Virus record (IMG/VR): IMGVR_UViG_3300037504_000276
Coordinates: 1 to 34,226 of that record
DNA length: 34,226 nucleotides
Source: a virus
Direction: 5' to 3' (one strand)
Both the position numbers and the translations under genes were made by a program. Below the pieces are notes generated by a model, which did not search any database, was not told the origin of the DNA, and saw only the letters and a list, made by a program, of their open reading frames with translations. Shown piece by piece: positions 719 through 15,580 of the stretch (position 1 is the first letter of the stretch; every line of letters starts with the position of its first letter).

Positions 719-3223
719 ATGATCTTCGAGGAGCGCTTCGACAGTGACGCAGACTGGCACCATAGCGTGCTAGTCATCCGGCCCGACAGCTCGCAGTATG
801 AGACAGAGATTGGCAACGTGTTTTCGCCGCGCGACTGGGTCGCGTGGTACCAGCACGATCCAGGCACTTGGGATCAGCCAGAGGCTGGATACATCTGGGC
901 ACGCGACGGCTATGCTGAACGCATTCAGGCTGGCGCTGGGGCCTACAAGCTCTTCACATTCTACCGCCGTCACGACGCTGGCTTGTTGCGGATCGTCAAG
1001 GTGGCGCCGGGCACGAGACTGAGGCTATCAGCCTGGTCGCACGCCTGGAGCAATGGCCTGAGCGCAGAGCATGGAGGCAAGCTGGACTACAGCCTCTGGT
1101 CGGACGGCTCGCTAGTCGGCGAGCGCGTCGTGGCACTGACGCAGGACGAGATACCGCCGCTATCACCGAGCGCGCCGGAGAAGATCGACCGCCAGAACGA
1201 CGCTAACGGCAACATCCGCCAGCAGATCGGCATCGATCCGACAGGCGGCATATATCCGCTGTCGGGCTCTGTCATCTGGAGCGAGCCGCTCTACATTTAC
1301 AATGGCTACGCACGTCAGCACGTGATCGAGGCGACGGCAGGCAATAGAGGCGTGGTCACGATCTGGCTACGCTCACGGACGCTCTGGCCCTTCAAGCACA
1401 ACGACGTGTATTGGGACTCGGTGACACTAGAGGCACTAGGTGAGGAGCAGGAACCCGACTGCGAGGGCCTACCGCGTGAGCAGTACGACCGCACCTATCA
1501 CGTCCTGCCAGCATCCACGCCTGCCGAGCGCGTCGGCGACATCGTCGCGGGCCTCTGGGCTGAGCAGCCGGTGACTGCCGGGCCGAGCTACGACGATGCG
1601 GGGATTGGCGCACTGGAGCACAAGCGCGCAGTCCTCTGGGACATTGACGAGACGGATCGCGCAGAGTACGAGGCGTGGTACATTGAGCACTATCCAGGCA
1701 CGTTCGTCGAGTTCGCAGGCGAGGGGCAGCCGCCTACGCCTGGGGATCCCTGGCAGCGCGACATCAGAGCCGACTTGCCTACAAACGATGACTGTCCGCC
1801 GCCGCTGGACAACGGCTGGTGGCGCAGGAGCCTCGACCAGATTGACGGCGTCACGCTGCATCACACACTGGGCGATGATCCGATCGCCCTCGCTGAAAGA
1901 TACGTGCAGAAGGATGGCGGCAGGCCGTCGATCCCGTACACGCTCTGGATCGCGCGTGATGGCACGACGTCGCTCTGCAACGACCTCGAAGCCGGCTGCT
2001 GGCACGACCACACCGGCCATGAGAATACGCATCTAAGCATCGGCCTCGCAGGCAGGCTCGACACCAATCCGCCGACCGAGGCGCAGATCGACGCGGCTGC
2101 ACGTGCATCCGCCTGGGCGGTCCAGCATCCGGGCATGGGCGTGGACGCCGACACCGTGCGAGGTCACCAGGACTACATCGCAACGATCTGCCCCGGCTGG
2201 GCAACCTGGCGCAGCGAATTCTACGCCGCGCTAGCTGAGGCACTGGGCGAAGATCCGCCGGAGCCTGAGCCAGAACCAGAACCAGAACCAGCCTGGCCAG
2301 TCGGCGCGCCGACTTCGCTCCACTGCCAGAACCTGATCGCAGGCGTGGAGCAGTTCGTGAGGGACGTGCGTCCGGGCGTGATCAAGCTGCTGGCCGGAAT
2401 GGAGGACGCGCCGACCATGCGCCAGTGGAGCCGCTGGACGCTGCCAATCTGGCGGCAACACAGAGACCATCAAGCCGAGTTCGTCTGGCACCCCGACGGC
2501 CCACGCGCTGGAGCGGCTGCCTGGGTGGACCTCTTCCGCGATAGCCTGCACGCTGTCTGCGAGGAGTTCCGCCGACGCATCCCTGACATCGAAGCGCCGT
2601 TCTTCGCGGTGGAGAGCGTCAATGAAGAGTACCCCACATTCAACGCCGAGAAGCTGGCGCGCGTCGTGGAGTTCGATACTGAGTTCATCCGCGAGATCGA
2701 GGCGACCGGCCTGCCGATCTTGCCAGTCGTGTTCACGGCGGCTGTCGGCAACCCGCACGAGACGGAGTACAGCGCGCTGCTACCACTCGCCGCCGAGACC
2801 GTCGCGCATCAGCGCCGCACCGGCTGGCCGTTGACGCCGCTGTGGGGCTATCACGGCTACTGGTGGATCCCGCACGGTCAGACGCAGCATCTGCTCGACG
2901 ACTGGGAGTGGTTCGCCGGTCGCTGGATGGAGATCGATCGCCTGCTAGTCGCCAACGGCTACCGCGTCAACTGGGCATTAACAGAGACAGGAGCCTATGA
3001 AAGCGTGGAGCGCGGCTGGCGCGCGCCCGAATGCCTGAGCGGTGATTGGGAAGAGTACCGACGCGAGATACTGGTGGTCGATCGGAAGATCAAGGAATGG
3101 AACAAGCAGCACGGCGGACGCTGCTTGGGCCAAACGCTCTTCACAGTCAACCAGTTCGCCGGCTGGGAGTGGTTCAAGCTCGCACCTGAGGAGATCGTCT
3201 CACTGATCGAAGCGCTTATCTGA
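719..3223 (+). CDS. Tail-associated lysin: sugar-binding N-terminus, amidase, TIM-barrel glycosidase
   Basis: This is an 834-residue modular protein. Residues 1-340 look like beta-rich, galactose-binding-type modules. Residues 360-510 match the PGRP/T7-lysozyme amidase family. The Zn ligands are His381 or His382, His483 (in GHQDY) and Cys491 (in TICPG); the His-to-Cys spacing of 8 is that of T7 lysozyme. This domain would cut the MurNAc-L-Ala bond. A Glu-Pro repeat linker near residues 515-526 leads to a C-terminal domain of about 300 residues rich in Trp and Tyr. It carries an Asn-Glu pair (635-636) and a Glu in TETG (756), spaced like the acid/base and nucleophile of clan GH-A barrels. ATG at 719 is preferred over the overlapping GTG at 716 because of GGAGG at 710-714. 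Its place after tail genes suggests a virion-bound lysin, but it is also the only endolysin candidate. Confidence 0.85.
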   Translation: MIFEERFDSDADWHHSVLVIRPDSSQYETEIGNVFSPRDWVAWYQHDPGTWDQPEAGYIWARDGYAERIQAGAGAYKLFTFYRRHDAGLLRIVKVAPGTRLRLSAWSHAWSNGLSAEHGGKLDYSLWSDGSLVGERVVALTQDEIPPLSPSAPEKIDRQNDANGNIRQQIGIDPTGGIYPLSGSVIWSEPLYIYNGYARQHVIEATAGNRGVVTIWLRSRTLWPFKHNDVYWDSVTLEALGEEQEPDCEGLPREQYDRTYHVLPASTPAERVGDIVAGLWAEQPVTAGPSYDDAGIGALEHKRAVLWDIDETDRAEYEAWYIEHYPGTFVEFAGEGQPPTPGDPWQRDIRADLPTNDDCPPPLDNGWWRRSLDQIDGVTLHHTLGDDPIALAERYVQKDGGRPSIPYTLWIARDGTTSLCNDLEAGCWHDHTGHENTHLSIGLAGRLDTNPPTEAQIDAAARASAWAVQHPGMGVDADTVRGHQDYIATICPGWATWRSEFYAALAEALGEDPPEPEPEPEPEPAWPVGAPTSLHCQNLIAGVEQFVRDVRPGVIKLLAGMEDAPTMRQWSRWTLPIWRQHRDHQAEFVWHPDGPRAGAAAWVDLFRDSLHAVCEEFRRRIPDIEAPFFAVESVNEEYPTFNAEKLARVVEFDTEFIREIEATGLPILPVVFTAAVGNPHETEYSALLPLAAETVAHQRRTGWPLTPLWGYHGYWWIPHGQTQHLLDDWEWFAGRWMEIDRLLVANGYRVNWALTETGAYESVERGWRAPECLSGDWEEYRREILVVDRKIKEWNKQHGGRCLGQTLFTVNQFAGWEWFKLAPEEIVSLIEALI

Positions 3224-10073: not shown

Positions 10074-10918
10074 CCTACCTCCCCTGCTATAGCTTCCAGA
10101 AACGCCACGCCAGCGGGCGTGACCTCAATCCCCTGGCGATGCGCATCCTCGTCGCGCCATCGCCAGAGGCTCCGACCGTCTTCCATTCCCCAGTCTCGCA
10201 GGCGCTCGAATTCCGCGCGCGACAGAGGCCGGTCGCCGCCGACTAGATGCGGCTCCGAGAGAGACCCGCCAGCGAGCACAATCCGTGCGACCTGGCCCAG
10301 CGCGGCGAGGCTCAGAGGAGCGTCAGAGTACCACATCCGCGCCTCGCCAGGTACGCTCACCTCGATCCGCGCCGGCGGCTCCACGGGCTCCGGCTCCTCC
10401 TGGTCGATGCGATCCTGCCACCACGGCCCGCCCTCGCCGCCGATGATGTTCGCTAGCGCTTGCTCGACAAACGGCGACCGTAGCGCGCTCTCCTGTAGCG
10501 TGCTGAGCCAGATCCAGATCATCGCCACGAGTGCGCCGATGAGAGGAGTCACGCCCAGCGCGGCCCGGATCGGCACCACGAGCGACAGCCGGAACATCGC
10601 CCAGGCCGCCACAGCTCCGACCGCGCCGACGAGGATGCCGGTCATCAGCGTGCCCGCCGTCCATTCGGCCCCGCGCCAGCCGCGAAGCAGCGTCCAGCAG
10701 AGGAGTGCCGTGGACCAGAGGAGAGCGGCGACCGTGGCGATCTCGCGCCCCAGCGACCGCACGGCGAGGAGTAGCGAGAGCCAAACGAGCATAGCGGCGA
10801 CGCCGGCGGCAAGGCCGAGGAGGACCGGCACCACCACATCGTTGGTGATGCCGGCCTCCCTCTGCTCGCGAGACTCAACTGGCGTGCGCACGCCAAACTC
10901 TCCGCCGCGCTCACGCAT
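10070..10918 (-). CDS. Multipass membrane protein with soluble C-terminal domain
   Basis: The start is ATG 10918, overlapping the end of the upstream gene. The 282-residue product has four hydrophobic segments between residues 27 and 145, with a Trp/Leu-rich composition (VVVPVLLGLAAGVAAMLVW; LIGALVAMIWIWL). A Pro/Glu linker follows (EEPEPVEPP). The C-terminal domain of about 100 residues includes PLSRAEFERLRDWGM and a small winged-helix-like end (GIEVTPAGVAFLEAIA). The plan recalls the gene at 7543: membrane anchor plus DNA-binding-like tail. Function unknown. Confidence 0.6.
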   Translation of the reverse strand: MRERGGEFGVRTPVESREQREAGITNDVVVPVLLGLAAGVAAMLVWLSLLLAVRSLGREIATVAALLWSTALLCWTLLRGWRGAEWTAGTLMTGILVGAVGAVAAWAMFRLSLVVPIRAALGVTPLIGALVAMIWIWLSTLQESALRSPFVEQALANIIGGEGGPWWQDRIDQEEPEPVEPPARIEVSVPGEARMWYSDAPLSLAALGQVARIVLAGGSLSEPHLVGGDRPLSRAEFERLRDWGMEDGRSLWRWRDEDAHRQGIEVTPAGVAFLEAIAGEVG

Positions 10919-11303
10919 TGAGCATGCTGCCCATGTTCACTACGTGCGCAGCGTCGGCCAGTGCCGACGGCGTGATCTCGTCGTCCAGCACGGCCCGTGC
11001 CAGGCGCGTCGCCCTCACGCCTGGCAGCGTCTCAAGCTGGATGATAGTCAGCTCAACCTCTCCAGCCTCGATGTCGTAGAGTGTCCCGCCGTTGATAGTC
11101 GGCGGTGACCAGTAGCGGTCGAACATTATGCAGCCGCCCGCCTCTGTCTCGATCTCGATGAGGCCCTCGCCCCATTTGATGCTGCTGATTGTGGCGACCC
11201 TCAGGCCGCCGACGCTAGTGCCGCGGTCGCTCCAAAGTATGCGATAGCCCTCTCGCAGCTCGTGGAGCCACATCTTCAGCTCTCTCCACTCCTGGTCTGT
11301 CAT
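10911..11303 (-). CDS. Hypothetical protein, 130 aa, first gene after ribozyme 1
   Basis: ATG 11303 follows GGAGGAAACACG. Residues 1-25 form a helix (TDQEWRELKMWLHELREG), followed by beta-rich segments (LRVATISSIKWGEGLIEIET) and a helical end (ITPSALADAAHVVNMGS). I recognise no family. Its leader begins inside the hammerhead at 11327-11388; after self-cleavage its mRNA would start with a 5'-hydroxyl at 11363, about 60 nt before the start codon. Confidence 0.6.
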   Translation of the reverse strand: MTDQEWRELKMWLHELREGYRILWSDRGTSVGGLRVATISSIKWGEGLIEIETEAGGCIMFDRYWSPPTINGGTLYDIEAGEVELTIIQLETLPGVRATRLARAVLDDEITPSALADAAHVVNMGSMLNA

Positions 11304-11326
11304 CGTGTTTCCTCCGTTGTCTCGTT

Positions 11327-11388
11327 GGCCTATCTCATCAGCGGCGGGCGGCCAGTCCCGGCGGAGCCCCTTGCGGGGCTTTCGACTA
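11327..11388 (-). ncRNA. Type II hammerhead ribozyme, copy 1
   Basis: Read leftward from 11388: UAGUC, GAAA (11383-11380), stem III GCCCC-GCAA-GGGGC (11379-11366), U-C (11365-11364), stem I CGCCGGG (11363-11357), loop ACUGGCCG, CCCGCCG (11348-11342), then CUGAUGA (11341-11335) and GAU. This is the circular order of a type II hammerhead, open at stem II. All core positions are kept: CUGAUGA, GAA, the A-U closing pair and H17=C. Cleavage is expected between 11364 and 11363. Stem I has one C-C mismatch. Stem II is weak: C-G, U-A and G-U, then an A-A mismatch. The upstream gene's stop codon UAG forms part of it. Confidence 0.85.
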
Positions 11389-11664
11389 TGCGGCGGGCAC
11401 CTCAAACGCGCCGCTGTCGAATGTCCTAGCGTCGCCTGGGCGATACACCCAGACGAATTCCGTCCCCCGGTCATCGCGGTAGATTGGACGCCCGCAGGCG
11501 TCCACAGCCCCAGTGTCCTCGCACCGGATGTCCGTCTTGACACGGTAGCACTTGCCGTTTGGCACAGTGCTGTACCGGAACTCGGCGCGCTGGTCATCGA
11601 TCTTAACCCCTGCCGTGTTCTTCGGGCGGCGGCCAGCCGGAACAGTAAAAGTCTTGGCTTGCAT
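11386..11664 (-). CDS. Hypothetical protein, 92 aa, flanked by two hammerhead ribozymes
   Basis: ATG 11664 follows AGGAGGAACACG. The 92-residue product is beta-rich and basic at its N-terminus (AKTFTVPAGRRPKNTAGVK), with two cysteines in the middle (DIRCEDTGAVDACGR) and an end typical of a small beta domain (TEFVWVYRPGDAR). I recognise no family. Its reading frame ends exactly where ribozyme copy 1 begins, and its leader holds the 3' part of copy 2. Double cleavage would release it as a 357-nt monocistronic RNA with a 5'-OH and a cyclic phosphate. Confidence 0.65.
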   Translation of the reverse strand: MQAKTFTVPAGRRPKNTAGVKIDDQRAEFRYSTVPNGKCYRVKTDIRCEDTGAVDACGRPIYRDDRGTEFVWVYRPGDARTFDSGAFEVPAA

Positions 11665-11683
11665 CGTGTTCCTCCTGTCTCGT

Positions 11684-11748
11684 GGCCTATCTCATCAGGC
11701 GCGGGCGGCCAGTCCCGCGCGACGGGGCCGAAGCCCCGTTTCGACTAG
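11684..11748 (-). ncRNA. Type II hammerhead ribozyme, copy 2
   Basis: Read leftward: UAGUC, GAAA (11742-11739), stem III CGGGGC with a UUCG tetraloop and GCCCCG (11738-11723), U-C (11722-11721), stem I GCGCGGG (11720-11714), loop ACUGGCCG identical to copy 1, CCCGCGC (11705-11699), CUGAUGA (11698-11692), then GAUAGGCC. Stems I and III are perfect (7 and 6 bp). They differ from copy 1 by compensatory changes, while the core and loop I are unchanged. Cleavage is expected between 11721 and 11720. Stem II may extend past an A-A mismatch with U-G and C-G pairs. The upstream stop codon overlaps the 5' edge. Confidence 0.9.
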
Positions 11749-12239
11749 TCCTCCAGCCAGTCCCATTGATTGAGCTCGTCCATTGTCGTCTCTGCAATGG
11801 TGCGCAGCTCGTCGTAGATCGCCGCCTCGTCCGGTAGATGCTGGTCGATCTCATATCCACAGACTGCGAAGCTCCACGCCGATGAGTGTGAGTGCCCCTC
11901 CCAGTCTACAGCCCAGCCCAGGCGGAGGCGGATCTGCTCCGCGAATCTGTCACGCAGAGCCTCGATCTCGTGCTCATCCATCTCACCGTCTGGATCGACC
12001 CACAGATCGAATTCGTCGAGGTTGTGCACCCAGACGACCGTCTCAGGCTCCTCCAGACGGAACTCGTCGGCCCGCTCATTGACCGCGCGGCCTTCCTCGG
12101 CGTCGTACTCGAACAGAGGTAACGACTCCGCTATCACCTGTGTGTAGTCCAGCGGCCCGCAGGCCCCAGTCACTACGCCGCTTCCGTCGGTCTCGACTGC
12201 CCACGTCCCACTGTTGTCACTCCAAAATTGCTTCGCCAT
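11745..12239 (-). CDS. Hypothetical acidic protein, 164 aa
   Basis: ATG 12239 follows CAGGAGGAAACAA, downstream of the promoter at 12285, so it is the first gene of that transcript. The product is acidic and rich in Trp and Asp (LDEFDLWVDPDGEMDEHE; NQWDWLED at the end), with no membrane segment. An early conserved-looking part is VVTGACGPLDYTQVIAE. No family is recognised. Acidic DNA-mimic or anti-host proteins often look like this, but that is only a possibility. The stop codon lies in ribozyme copy 2. Confidence 0.6.
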   Translation of the reverse strand: MAKQFWSDNSGTWAVETDGSGVVTGACGPLDYTQVIAESLPLFEYDAEEGRAVNERADEFRLEEPETVVWVHNLDEFDLWVDPDGEMDEHEIEALRDRFAEQIRLRLGWAVDWEGHSHSSAWSFAVCGYEIDQHLPDEAAIYDELRTIAETTMDELNQWDWLED

Positions 12240-12284
12240 TTGTTTCCTCCTGTGTCTCAGTGTCTCCATTCCTTAACTGTCCCC

Positions 12285-12313
12285 ATTATAGCACACTAAT
12301 GAGGTGTTGTCAA
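12285..12313 (-). promoter_or_regulatory. Strong leftward promoter with shared operator
   Basis: Read leftward: TTGACA (12313-12308), 17-bp spacer, TATAAT (12290-12285), both consensus, with TG one base before the -10. The spacer contains CTCATTAGTGTG, as at 7123. The transcript would carry both hammerheads and the genes down to at least 10070. Confidence 0.92.
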
Positions 12314-14315: not shown

Positions 14316-15160
14316 CGCACGACCTCAATCGGGACGCTATTCCGTGAGCCGGGTGCCCCCTGCTTCTCCTTCTCTTTTTTGGCGATGCCGCTCACATAGA
14401 CAAGCGGATTGCCAGTGACGCGGTATATGTTCGCCTGCCAGAGGAGCTGAGCGAGTCGCGCGTAGCCTCCGACTCGGCTGGCCGTTTTTGCTGCTAGGCC
14501 ATACGATCCCTTCTCCGGCGTCCACCTCGGCCAGAGAGTCTCCACCATCTTCACTACTCTGGCCTGTGGCCCACCGCGTCCGTTCCCGTGAGCCACAAAG
14601 TCGATCCAGCCATCTAGGTTGTGGGGTAGCGTGTCAGTGTGTGGCGCTTCGGGCTTTGGCTTGTCAGAGCGTGGCGCAGCCGCCTGCGAAGCAGGCGAAG
14701 TCTTTTCCTGGTTTCTTTCTATAGTATCTTTCTCTGATCGAGGTAAAGTCTCTTTACCCCCCTGGTAAAGTCTCTTTACCTCTGTGGTAACATCTTCTTC
14801 ATCCTGGGCGATTGACAAGGCGTAGGCCTTCTTGACGCGCGCGCCATCGCTGTTGTCCGTTGTTGATGTTATGAAGCCGTGCTCCTCAGCACGCTTCAAG
14901 CCGTCGATGACCGTAGGGCGGCTCAGCCCAGTGCCTGCGTCTATTCGTGCTCCGTCCCGCCGCTTGCGCCCGTTACAAAACTCATCTAACGTGATCTTCT
15001 TCATTGCGCTGAATTCCTGATAGCCCCAAGTGTGACGCAGAATGTATAGCAGCACCTTGAGCTCGCCAGACGTTTCGATGAGCGGTAGTGCCTCAATGAG
15101 CGCGTGAGGGAGCTTGCTCCAGTTCTGTTGTGGTACATCGAATCCGCGGAAGCGATCCAT
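14312..15160 (-). CDS. Replication initiator / helicase loader with winged helix
   Basis: The 282-residue product starts at ATG after GGAGGTCTAG. Residues 5-105 resemble the N-terminal winged helix of phage replication protein O or DnaD-like initiators (QNWSKLPHALIEALPLIETS, LYILRHTWGY, LSRPTVIDGLKRAEEHGF). The middle is low-complexity and encoded by repeats that look like an origin. The C-terminal 100 residues (GWIDFVAHGNGRGGP, LWPRWTPEKG) may contact DnaB, the next gene. It is the first gene after the leftward promoter at 15373, with a leader of about 205 nt that can form two strong hairpins. Confidence 0.75.
   Translation of the reverse strand: MDRFRGFDVPQQNWSKLPHALIEALPLIETSGELKVLLYILRHTWGYQEFSAMKKITLDEFCNGRKRRDGARIDAGTGLSRPTVIDGLKRAEEHGFITSTTDNSDGARVKKAYALSIAQDEEDVTTEVKRLYQGGKETLPRSEKDTIERNQEKTSPASQAAAPRSDKPKPEAPHTDTLPHNLDGWIDFVAHGNGRGGPQARVVKMVETLWPRWTPEKGSYGLAAKTASRVGGYARLAQLLWQANIYRVTGNPLVYVSGIAKKEKEKQGAPGSRNSVPIEVVR
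14700..14791. other. Candidate replication origin: iterons plus AT-rich stretch inside the initiator gene
   Basis: Two identical 17-bp units, GGTAAAGTCTCTTTACC, lie at 14742-14758 and 14764-14780. A partial third, GGTAAC, starts at 14786. The period is exactly 22 bp, about two helical turns. Each unit is itself an inverted repeat (GGTAAAG / CTTTACC). A T- and AT-rich stretch flanks them at 14701-14740. Iterons inside the initiator gene next to AT-rich DNA are the arrangement of lambda-type origins. Confidence 0.7.
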
Positions 15161-15211: not shown

Positions 15212-15220
15212 ACTCCAATG

Positions 15221-15305
15221 CAAAAGAGCTTCTTGCTTGAGTGTAGACGGTCGCTGTGGCCATGAGGACGTGGCCTCGCCTACGCTCAAGCAAGAAGCTC
15301 GTTTG
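15221..15305 (-). other. Long imperfect hairpin in the initiator leader
   Basis: Positions 15226-15245 pair with 15281-15300 over 20 bp with a single G-U wobble. After one mismatch, 15221-15224 pair with 15302-15305. The 35-nt interior can form a second small stem (GGCCA / TGGCC). An 85-nt structure of this strength in non-coding DNA suggests a structured leader, a processed RNA or a replication structure. No known riboswitch is recognised. Confidence 0.75.
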
Positions 15306-15372
15306 TGTCATCGATCCTCATCCTTCCAGTCGGTTCGCCAGCGACGGCGGTGAGCAATCGCCCACGACCAAC

Positions 15373-15401
15373 AGTATACCACGCTTCTCAGAATCTGTCA
15401 A
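15373..15401 (-). promoter_or_regulatory. Leftward promoter of the replication operon
   Basis: Read leftward: TTGACA (15401-15396), 17-bp spacer, extended TGG and TATACT (15378-15373). It is back to back with the rightward promoter at 15415; the two -35 boxes are only 13 bp apart. Both share GCGTGGTATACT, so one regulator could control both. Confidence 0.92.
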
Positions 15402-15414
15402 GGCCGTCGGCGGC

Positions 15415-15443
15415 TTGACACCATACGCGAGGCGTGGTATACT
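15415..15443 (+). promoter_or_regulatory. Rightward promoter P1
   Basis: TTGACA (15415-15420), 17-bp spacer and TATACT (15438-15443) with an extended TGG. A strong terminator lies only about 100 bp downstream and no gene lies between, so the direct product would be a small RNA. Confidence 0.92.
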
Positions 15444-15449
15444 GGTTGT

Positions 15450-15550
15450 GGATAAGGGATGCTGTGGCCGTACTTGTACGGCATTCGGGTCAGACCGAAA
15501 CATCCATATCCATGTCAAGCTCGCAGGCGTGTGAGCCTGCGAGCTTTCTT
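15450..15550 (+). ncRNA. Putative small structured RNA between P1 and an intrinsic terminator
   Basis: This segment runs from the expected P1 start (about 15450) to the end of the terminator (about 15550), roughly 100 nt. It contains a perfect hairpin GCCGTAC-TT-GTACGGC, a second stem TTCGG/CCGAA around GTCAGA, an unpaired stretch, then the terminator stem. No convincing reading frame with a ribosome binding site fits. The layout promoter, two stems, single-stranded region and terminator is that of a small regulatory RNA. Expression is inferred. Confidence 0.6.
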
Positions 15551-15551
15551 C
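15517..15551 (+). terminator. Strong intrinsic terminator
   Basis: AAGCTCGCAGGC and GCCTGCGAGCTT form a perfect 12-bp stem with a 6-nt loop, followed by TCTTCTT. The T-rich tail abuts the -35 box of P2. Confidence 0.88.
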
Positions 15552-15580
15552 TTGACACTCTCCGAGGGACGTGGTATACT
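15552..15580 (+). promoter_or_regulatory. Rightward promoter P2
   Basis: TTGACA (15552-15557), 17-bp spacer, TGG-TATACT (15575-15580). It shares ACGTGGTATACT with P1 and the leftward promoter. Its leader holds GTTTCCTCC (15595-15603) and then a GC hairpin. Confidence 0.9.

Follow-up and report, generated by a model that had tools for sequence, protein, structure and literature searches.

The window, here the whole virus record of 34,226 nucleotides, carries phage head, portal, terminase and endolysin genes on its plus strand, and genes for a DnaB-like helicase, a RusA-like resolvase and a CI/CII-like regulator on its minus strand, according to family scans of the record's proteins. The locus described here is on the minus strand and contains three genes, which we call A, B and C, with a ribozyme candidate in each of the two gaps between them. 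Gene A (11745-12239, minus strand, 164 aa) starts with an ATG at 12239 that follows the Shine-Dalgarno sequence AGGAGG. Gene B (11386-11664, minus strand, 92 aa) has the Shine-Dalgarno sequence GGAGG at 11675-11671, and gene C (10911-11303, minus strand, 130 aa) has GGAGG at 11315-11311. All three are orphans and could therefore not be linked to a function: relatives of gene A were not found in viral contigs, cultured phages or family scans, those of gene B were not found in cultured phages or among solved structures, and those of gene C were not found in family scans. The search of viral contigs for relatives of the DnaB-like helicase was also negative. A match of gene B to PF08789 was weak and spanned 20 residues, and it was not used; an apparent identity of about 50% between gene B and one ORF lying between ribozymes elsewhere was a product of the multiple alignment, as pairwise BLASTP failed to reproduce it. 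Upstream of gene A we identified a predicted sigma-70-type promoter (12285-12313, minus strand), TTGACA and TATAAT separated by 17 nt and with the extended -10 TG, which matches the consensus at 12 of 12 positions. From its position, this promoter would drive leftward transcription of a unit made of gene A, ribozyme 1, gene B, ribozyme 2 and gene C.

An earlier note on this DNA had proposed that two tandem type II hammerhead ribozymes lie here on the minus strand, and had suggested Infernal with the Rfam type II model as a check. We ran cmscan against all Rfam families and recovered both copies at full length as RF02276 (Hammerhead_II), ribozyme 1 at 11746-11681 (48.3 bits, E 4e-7) and ribozyme 2 at 11387-11324 (39.8 bits, E 6.8e-5), both on the minus strand and both above the curated gathering score of 37 bits. 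There was no third type II hammerhead at E<=1 anywhere in the 34,226 bases. Our own core-plus-stems descriptor also detected the two ribozymes, with one hit in 300 windows of a shuffled control. In ribozyme 1 the elements follow one another on the minus strand as GAAA (11742-11739), stem III (11739-11722), the predicted cut (11721/11720), stem I (11720-11699) and CUGAUGA (11698-11692), and in ribozyme 2 as GAAA (11383-11380), stem III (11380-11365), the predicted cut (11364/11363), stem I (11363-11342) and CUGAUGA (11341-11335). The invariant core, as read from the sequence, is intact in both, including CUGAUGA, GAAA, an H17 that is not G and the C11.1-G10.1 pair, and in the Rfam alignment loops close stems I and III while stem II is open. 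GAAA, CUGAUGA, the closed stems III and I with the UC between them, the cut positions and their spacing of 357 nt all agree with the earlier proposal.

The two copies have the identical loop I, ACUGGCCG, and the ribozyme cassettes are 94% identical over a shared block of 35 nt. In ribozyme 2 stem III is GCCCC/GGGGC and in ribozyme 1 it is CGGGGC/GCCCCG, so that the strands are exchanged and pairing is preserved, and the first two pairs of stem I are likewise swapped with pairing preserved. The claim that the copies differ by compensatory changes around an unchanged core therefore stands for stem III and for stem I pairs 1 and 2. It does not extend to stem I pair 3, which is G-C in ribozyme 1 and a C-C mismatch (C11361/C11344) in ribozyme 2; the differences in stem I are thus not all compensatory. 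This mismatch, together with the recent duplication that the shared block would allow, might suggest that the copies are decayed or inactive hammerhead relics, or that the sequence is kept for another reason, such as a 3' hairpin or recombination between the repeated cassettes. We consider this highly improbable, since none of the core bases has been lost in either copy, stem III has changed wholly and still pairs, and the pseudoknot described below is intact in both.

Stem II, with three base pairs, had been regarded as the weak point of the proposal. Examination of relatives led us to a different view. Among the matches listed there were 386 distinct relatives, nearly all from viral contigs, and three base pairs was the commonest length of stem II in them (exactly three in 264 of 386). 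In addition, both ribozymes have a pseudoknot that had been missed, in which loop I pairs with a GGCCA tail located directly 3' of stem II. This complementarity involves UGGCC at 11711-11707 and GGCCA at 11687-11683 in ribozyme 1, and UGGCC at 11354-11350 and GGCCA at 11330-11326 in ribozyme 2 (minus strand), and yields a helix of 5 bp in each. A pairing of at least 5 bp between loop I and tail was possible in 268 of the 386 relatives among the matches listed, versus a mean of 123 and a maximum of 142 when tails were swapped among relatives 100 times. The same 386 relatives among the matches listed contain 201 different pseudoknot helices of at least 4 bp, and the pairing therefore reflects covariation and not common sequence. 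Perreault et al. (PMC3088659) showed by mutation and compensation that the contact between loop I and tail is required for fast cleavage, and this held even when stem II had a single base pair. As three base pairs are usual and the pseudoknot supports stem II, the concern about this stem is not justified.

One further feature of ribozyme 2 may matter for its rate. In folding calculations that ignore pseudoknots, its hammerhead fold is not the minimum-energy fold (-18.8 kcal/mol for the hammerhead, -21.6 kcal/mol for the minimum), and because of this and of the C-C mismatch in stem I ribozyme 2 may be slow. The cut is predicted to follow C17 in both ribozymes, and among the matches listed 471 of 492 relatives have C as H17.

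Fold, core and placement of the two ribozymes were established by computation, and so was the conservation of the arrangement in relatives. Our pattern scans of viral contigs returned relatives in at least about 120 stretches. In all 82 loci with at least two copies among the matches listed, the copies were on one strand, and in 61 of 119 segments of up to 1 kb between ribozymes, again among the matches listed, one ORF filled at least 75% of the segment. The densest arrays were found in two single viral contigs, with seven type II hammerheads in about 3 kb in one (L037:8402-11316) and eight in about 3 kb in the other (L074:3617-6710), nearly one per gene end; most of these copies were confirmed by Rfam at its cut-off. 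The same plan of genes and ribozymes recurs in well over a hundred viral contigs, with up to seven or eight copies per 3 kb. There was no common family among 66 genes enclosed by ribozymes in the matches listed, and ArdA appeared twice among these 66, in agreement with the ardA gene of the 2011 report (PMC3088659). Two further matches came from a pattern scan of bacterial genomes; they had no gathering-level Rfam hit and were treated as chance.

Tandem type II hammerheads that flank single phage genes, and the pseudoknot, were already published in 2011 (PMC3088659), and the two ribozymes here are therefore a further case of a known arrangement. The published arrays are those of prophages of Agrobacterium tumefaciens (a triple array around ardA), Azorhizobium caulinodans and Clostridium scindens, and such tandem hammerheads cleave in vitro and in E. 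coli (PMC3088659). Like them, our locus has several hammerheads on one strand that flank single small genes of varying identity, and like the type II consensus of that study it has the type II order, a short stem II and the pseudoknot between loop I and tail. It differs from those arrays, for which cleavage was shown, in that it is known from sequence alone, and also in that it belongs to a different phage and that its flanking genes A, B and C are orphans. A further comparison is offered by a cultured phage, Roseobacter phage CRP-212 (MZ892988.1), in which two type II hammerheads flank gp55. Both of its ribozymes have GGCC-type pseudoknots and a UAG just 5' of UCGAAA, and a Shine-Dalgarno sequence and start codon follow a short way downstream, as in our phage. 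In contrast, the flanked gene of CRP-212 is much longer (locus 2371-3036) and unrelated to gene B, the stop of its annotated gp55 is a UGA located 4 nt upstream of the UAG, and the second ribozyme, at 32.1 bits, is under the Rfam cut-off.

Tandem hammerheads also bound a unit in the retrozymes of plants and animals and in other hammerhead-bounded circular RNAs. Two ribozymes of the same type flanking a unit would yield the right end chemistry for a host RtcB-like ligase to join the 5'-OH to the cyclic phosphate, so that gene B could be carried on a circular mRNA; retrozymes use tandem hammerheads in this way (PMC4918200, PMC7229834). However, retrozymes have type I or type III ribozymes and are non-coding retroelement RNAs that circularise, whereas the ribozymes here are of type II and lie between phage protein genes, and the unit that they enclose is a protein gene. 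The arrays in relatives reach seven to eight copies with different genes between them, no ligase gene was found among the scanned proteins of the record, and a search for spliced or circular products of comparable arrays in bacteria was negative (PMC3088659). We therefore give a circular gene B mRNA very little credence.

The detail that appears to be new is the tight fit of the ribozymes between the stop of one gene and the start of the next, the arrangement itself having been known since 2011. Each ribozyme begins on the UAG of the upstream gene and is followed by GGAGG and then ATG; the UAG of gene A (11747-11745) and that of gene B (11388-11386) fall within the 5' strand of stem II in ribozymes 1 and 2, respectively. 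To describe this fit in relatives we used a scan that placed no constraint on the third pair of stem II or on any position 5' to it, and that gave 112 non-redundant ribozymes among the matches listed. Earlier scans had shown an enrichment of UAG, but their pattern had fixed the G; this enrichment was set aside and re-tested with both sides of the pair free. Of 110 non-redundant relatives among the matches listed, 94 had the stop of an ORF of at least 60 codons ending no more than 12 nt 5' of C11.1, a placement seen at 4% of random positions in these contigs, and in 1 of the 110 the upstream stop lay inside the ribozyme before the cut (+1 to +25). In 90 of 112 relatives among the matches listed, the 72 nt downstream contain a Shine-Dalgarno sequence and a start codon. 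In 43 of the 112, about one third, the last base of the stop is itself part of stem II pair 3 (among the matches listed). In these fused cases UAG is combined with C in 28 and with U in 2, UAA with U in 11 and with C in 1, and UGA with U in 1. The phage under study has UAG with U, that is, the G-U form of pair 3.

These data can be read as translation gating of the ribozyme, in which a ribosome terminating on the upstream gene would cover stem II and the GAAA core and block folding, so that the RNA would be cut only when the upstream gene is not heavily translated, and the cut would then switch the fate of the downstream RNA. In this reading the ribozyme would act as a sensor of translation and would not cut constitutively. 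In most relatives the stop directly adjoins stem II, in about a third it contributes to pair 3, mismatched combinations of stop and partner are rare, and the stop almost never extends beyond the 5' edge of the ribozyme, all among the matches listed. If true, type II hammerheads of phages would have the upstream stop as an integral part of their design, and the translation of a gene would be coupled, generally and without a protein, to cutting of the mRNA and to the fate of the next gene. Yet the same distribution of stops is expected from close packing of phage genes. Moreover, the covariation of pair 3 is the same in ribozymes whose upstream stop has another position, and the A just outside stem II, before pair 3, is conserved in 55 of 69 such ribozymes (both among the matches listed), so that ribozyme structure alone can explain the fit of UAR. 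UAG and UAA are the natural stops to fuse with the ribozyme because of the ribozyme's own ARUC sequence. We therefore regard gating by translation as unlikely, though less so than the other alternatives, and the exact fit between stop codon and Shine-Dalgarno sequence favours the processing of mRNA into one-gene pieces as the role of the ribozymes. Stop codons and translation are not mentioned in the main text of PMC3088659, and in the open-access literature we found no paper on stop-codon placement at type II hammerheads. The stop-codon fit is a modest addition to the 2011 description.

Altogether, we consider it likely that these are two genuine type II hammerheads that act in cis as processing sites between the genes of an A-B-C mRNA. 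The proposal that a 357-nt RNA with one small gene would be freed from a polycistronic phage mRNA is supported by the Rfam hits, by covariation of stems and pseudoknot among relatives, by the promoter and by the placement relative to stops and starts. According to this processing scheme, RNA from the promoter at 12313-12285 would run leftward across genes A, B and C, and the ribozymes would fold between the stop of one gene and the Shine-Dalgarno sequence of the next, with the UGGCC/GGCCA pseudoknot holding stems I and II together. Each ribozyme would cut once, after C17; that cleavage takes place in this phage is suggested by strong family evidence. The predicted products are an RNA with gene A that has the GC-rich stem III hairpin at its 3' end, the 357-nt gene B RNA (11364-11720, minus strand, with ends placed by the core alignment) and an RNA starting before gene C, the first gene 3' of the second cut. 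From its 5' end, the gene B RNA would consist of a 5'-OH with the stem I hairpin, gene B, and the stem III hairpin with the 3' end, and after cutting every gene would retain its own stop, Shine-Dalgarno sequence and start. From general knowledge of RNA decay, the 5'-OH directly before stem I may shield the pieces from 5'-monophosphate-dependent decay and the stem III hairpin at the 3' end may shield them from 3' exonucleases, and cutting may uncouple the expression of neighbouring genes. Such RNA fates may benefit the phage. The role of bacterial and phage hammerheads is still called an open question (PMC6155905), and the phage under study presents a clean case, with a promoter, three genes and two ribozymes in the gaps. 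As CRP-212 is cultured and has the same arrangement, infection of its host offers a way of testing the role.

Several other elements were observed in the record. The leader of gene A (12241-12258) repeats the sequence GAGACA..GGAGGAAACA that is found after the ribozymes, e.g., at 11306-11323. This repeat is a shared ribosome-binding module, and the copy in the leader of gene A has no ribozyme: a decayed third ribozyme, suspected there from the repeat, gave no Rfam match, and the promoter is found there instead. At 15373-15580 there are three sigma-70 promoters that are nearly perfect (TTGACA-17-TATACT) and have GCGTGGTATACT-like repeats in common; one of them points leftward and the other two point rightward. 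The region is a divergent control region of the phage and probably includes a repressor operator. In the presumed leader of the leftward transcript there is an inverted repeat (15221-15305) with 29-nt arms that are 90% complementary and spaced by 27 nt. A match to mir-208 at 15216-15312, under its Rfam cut-off, was dismissed as a chance hairpin. Finally, two adjoining copies of GGTAAAGTCTCTTTACC lie at 14740-14785 within a replication-initiator-like gene; the pair is iteron-like and possibly marks a replication origin.
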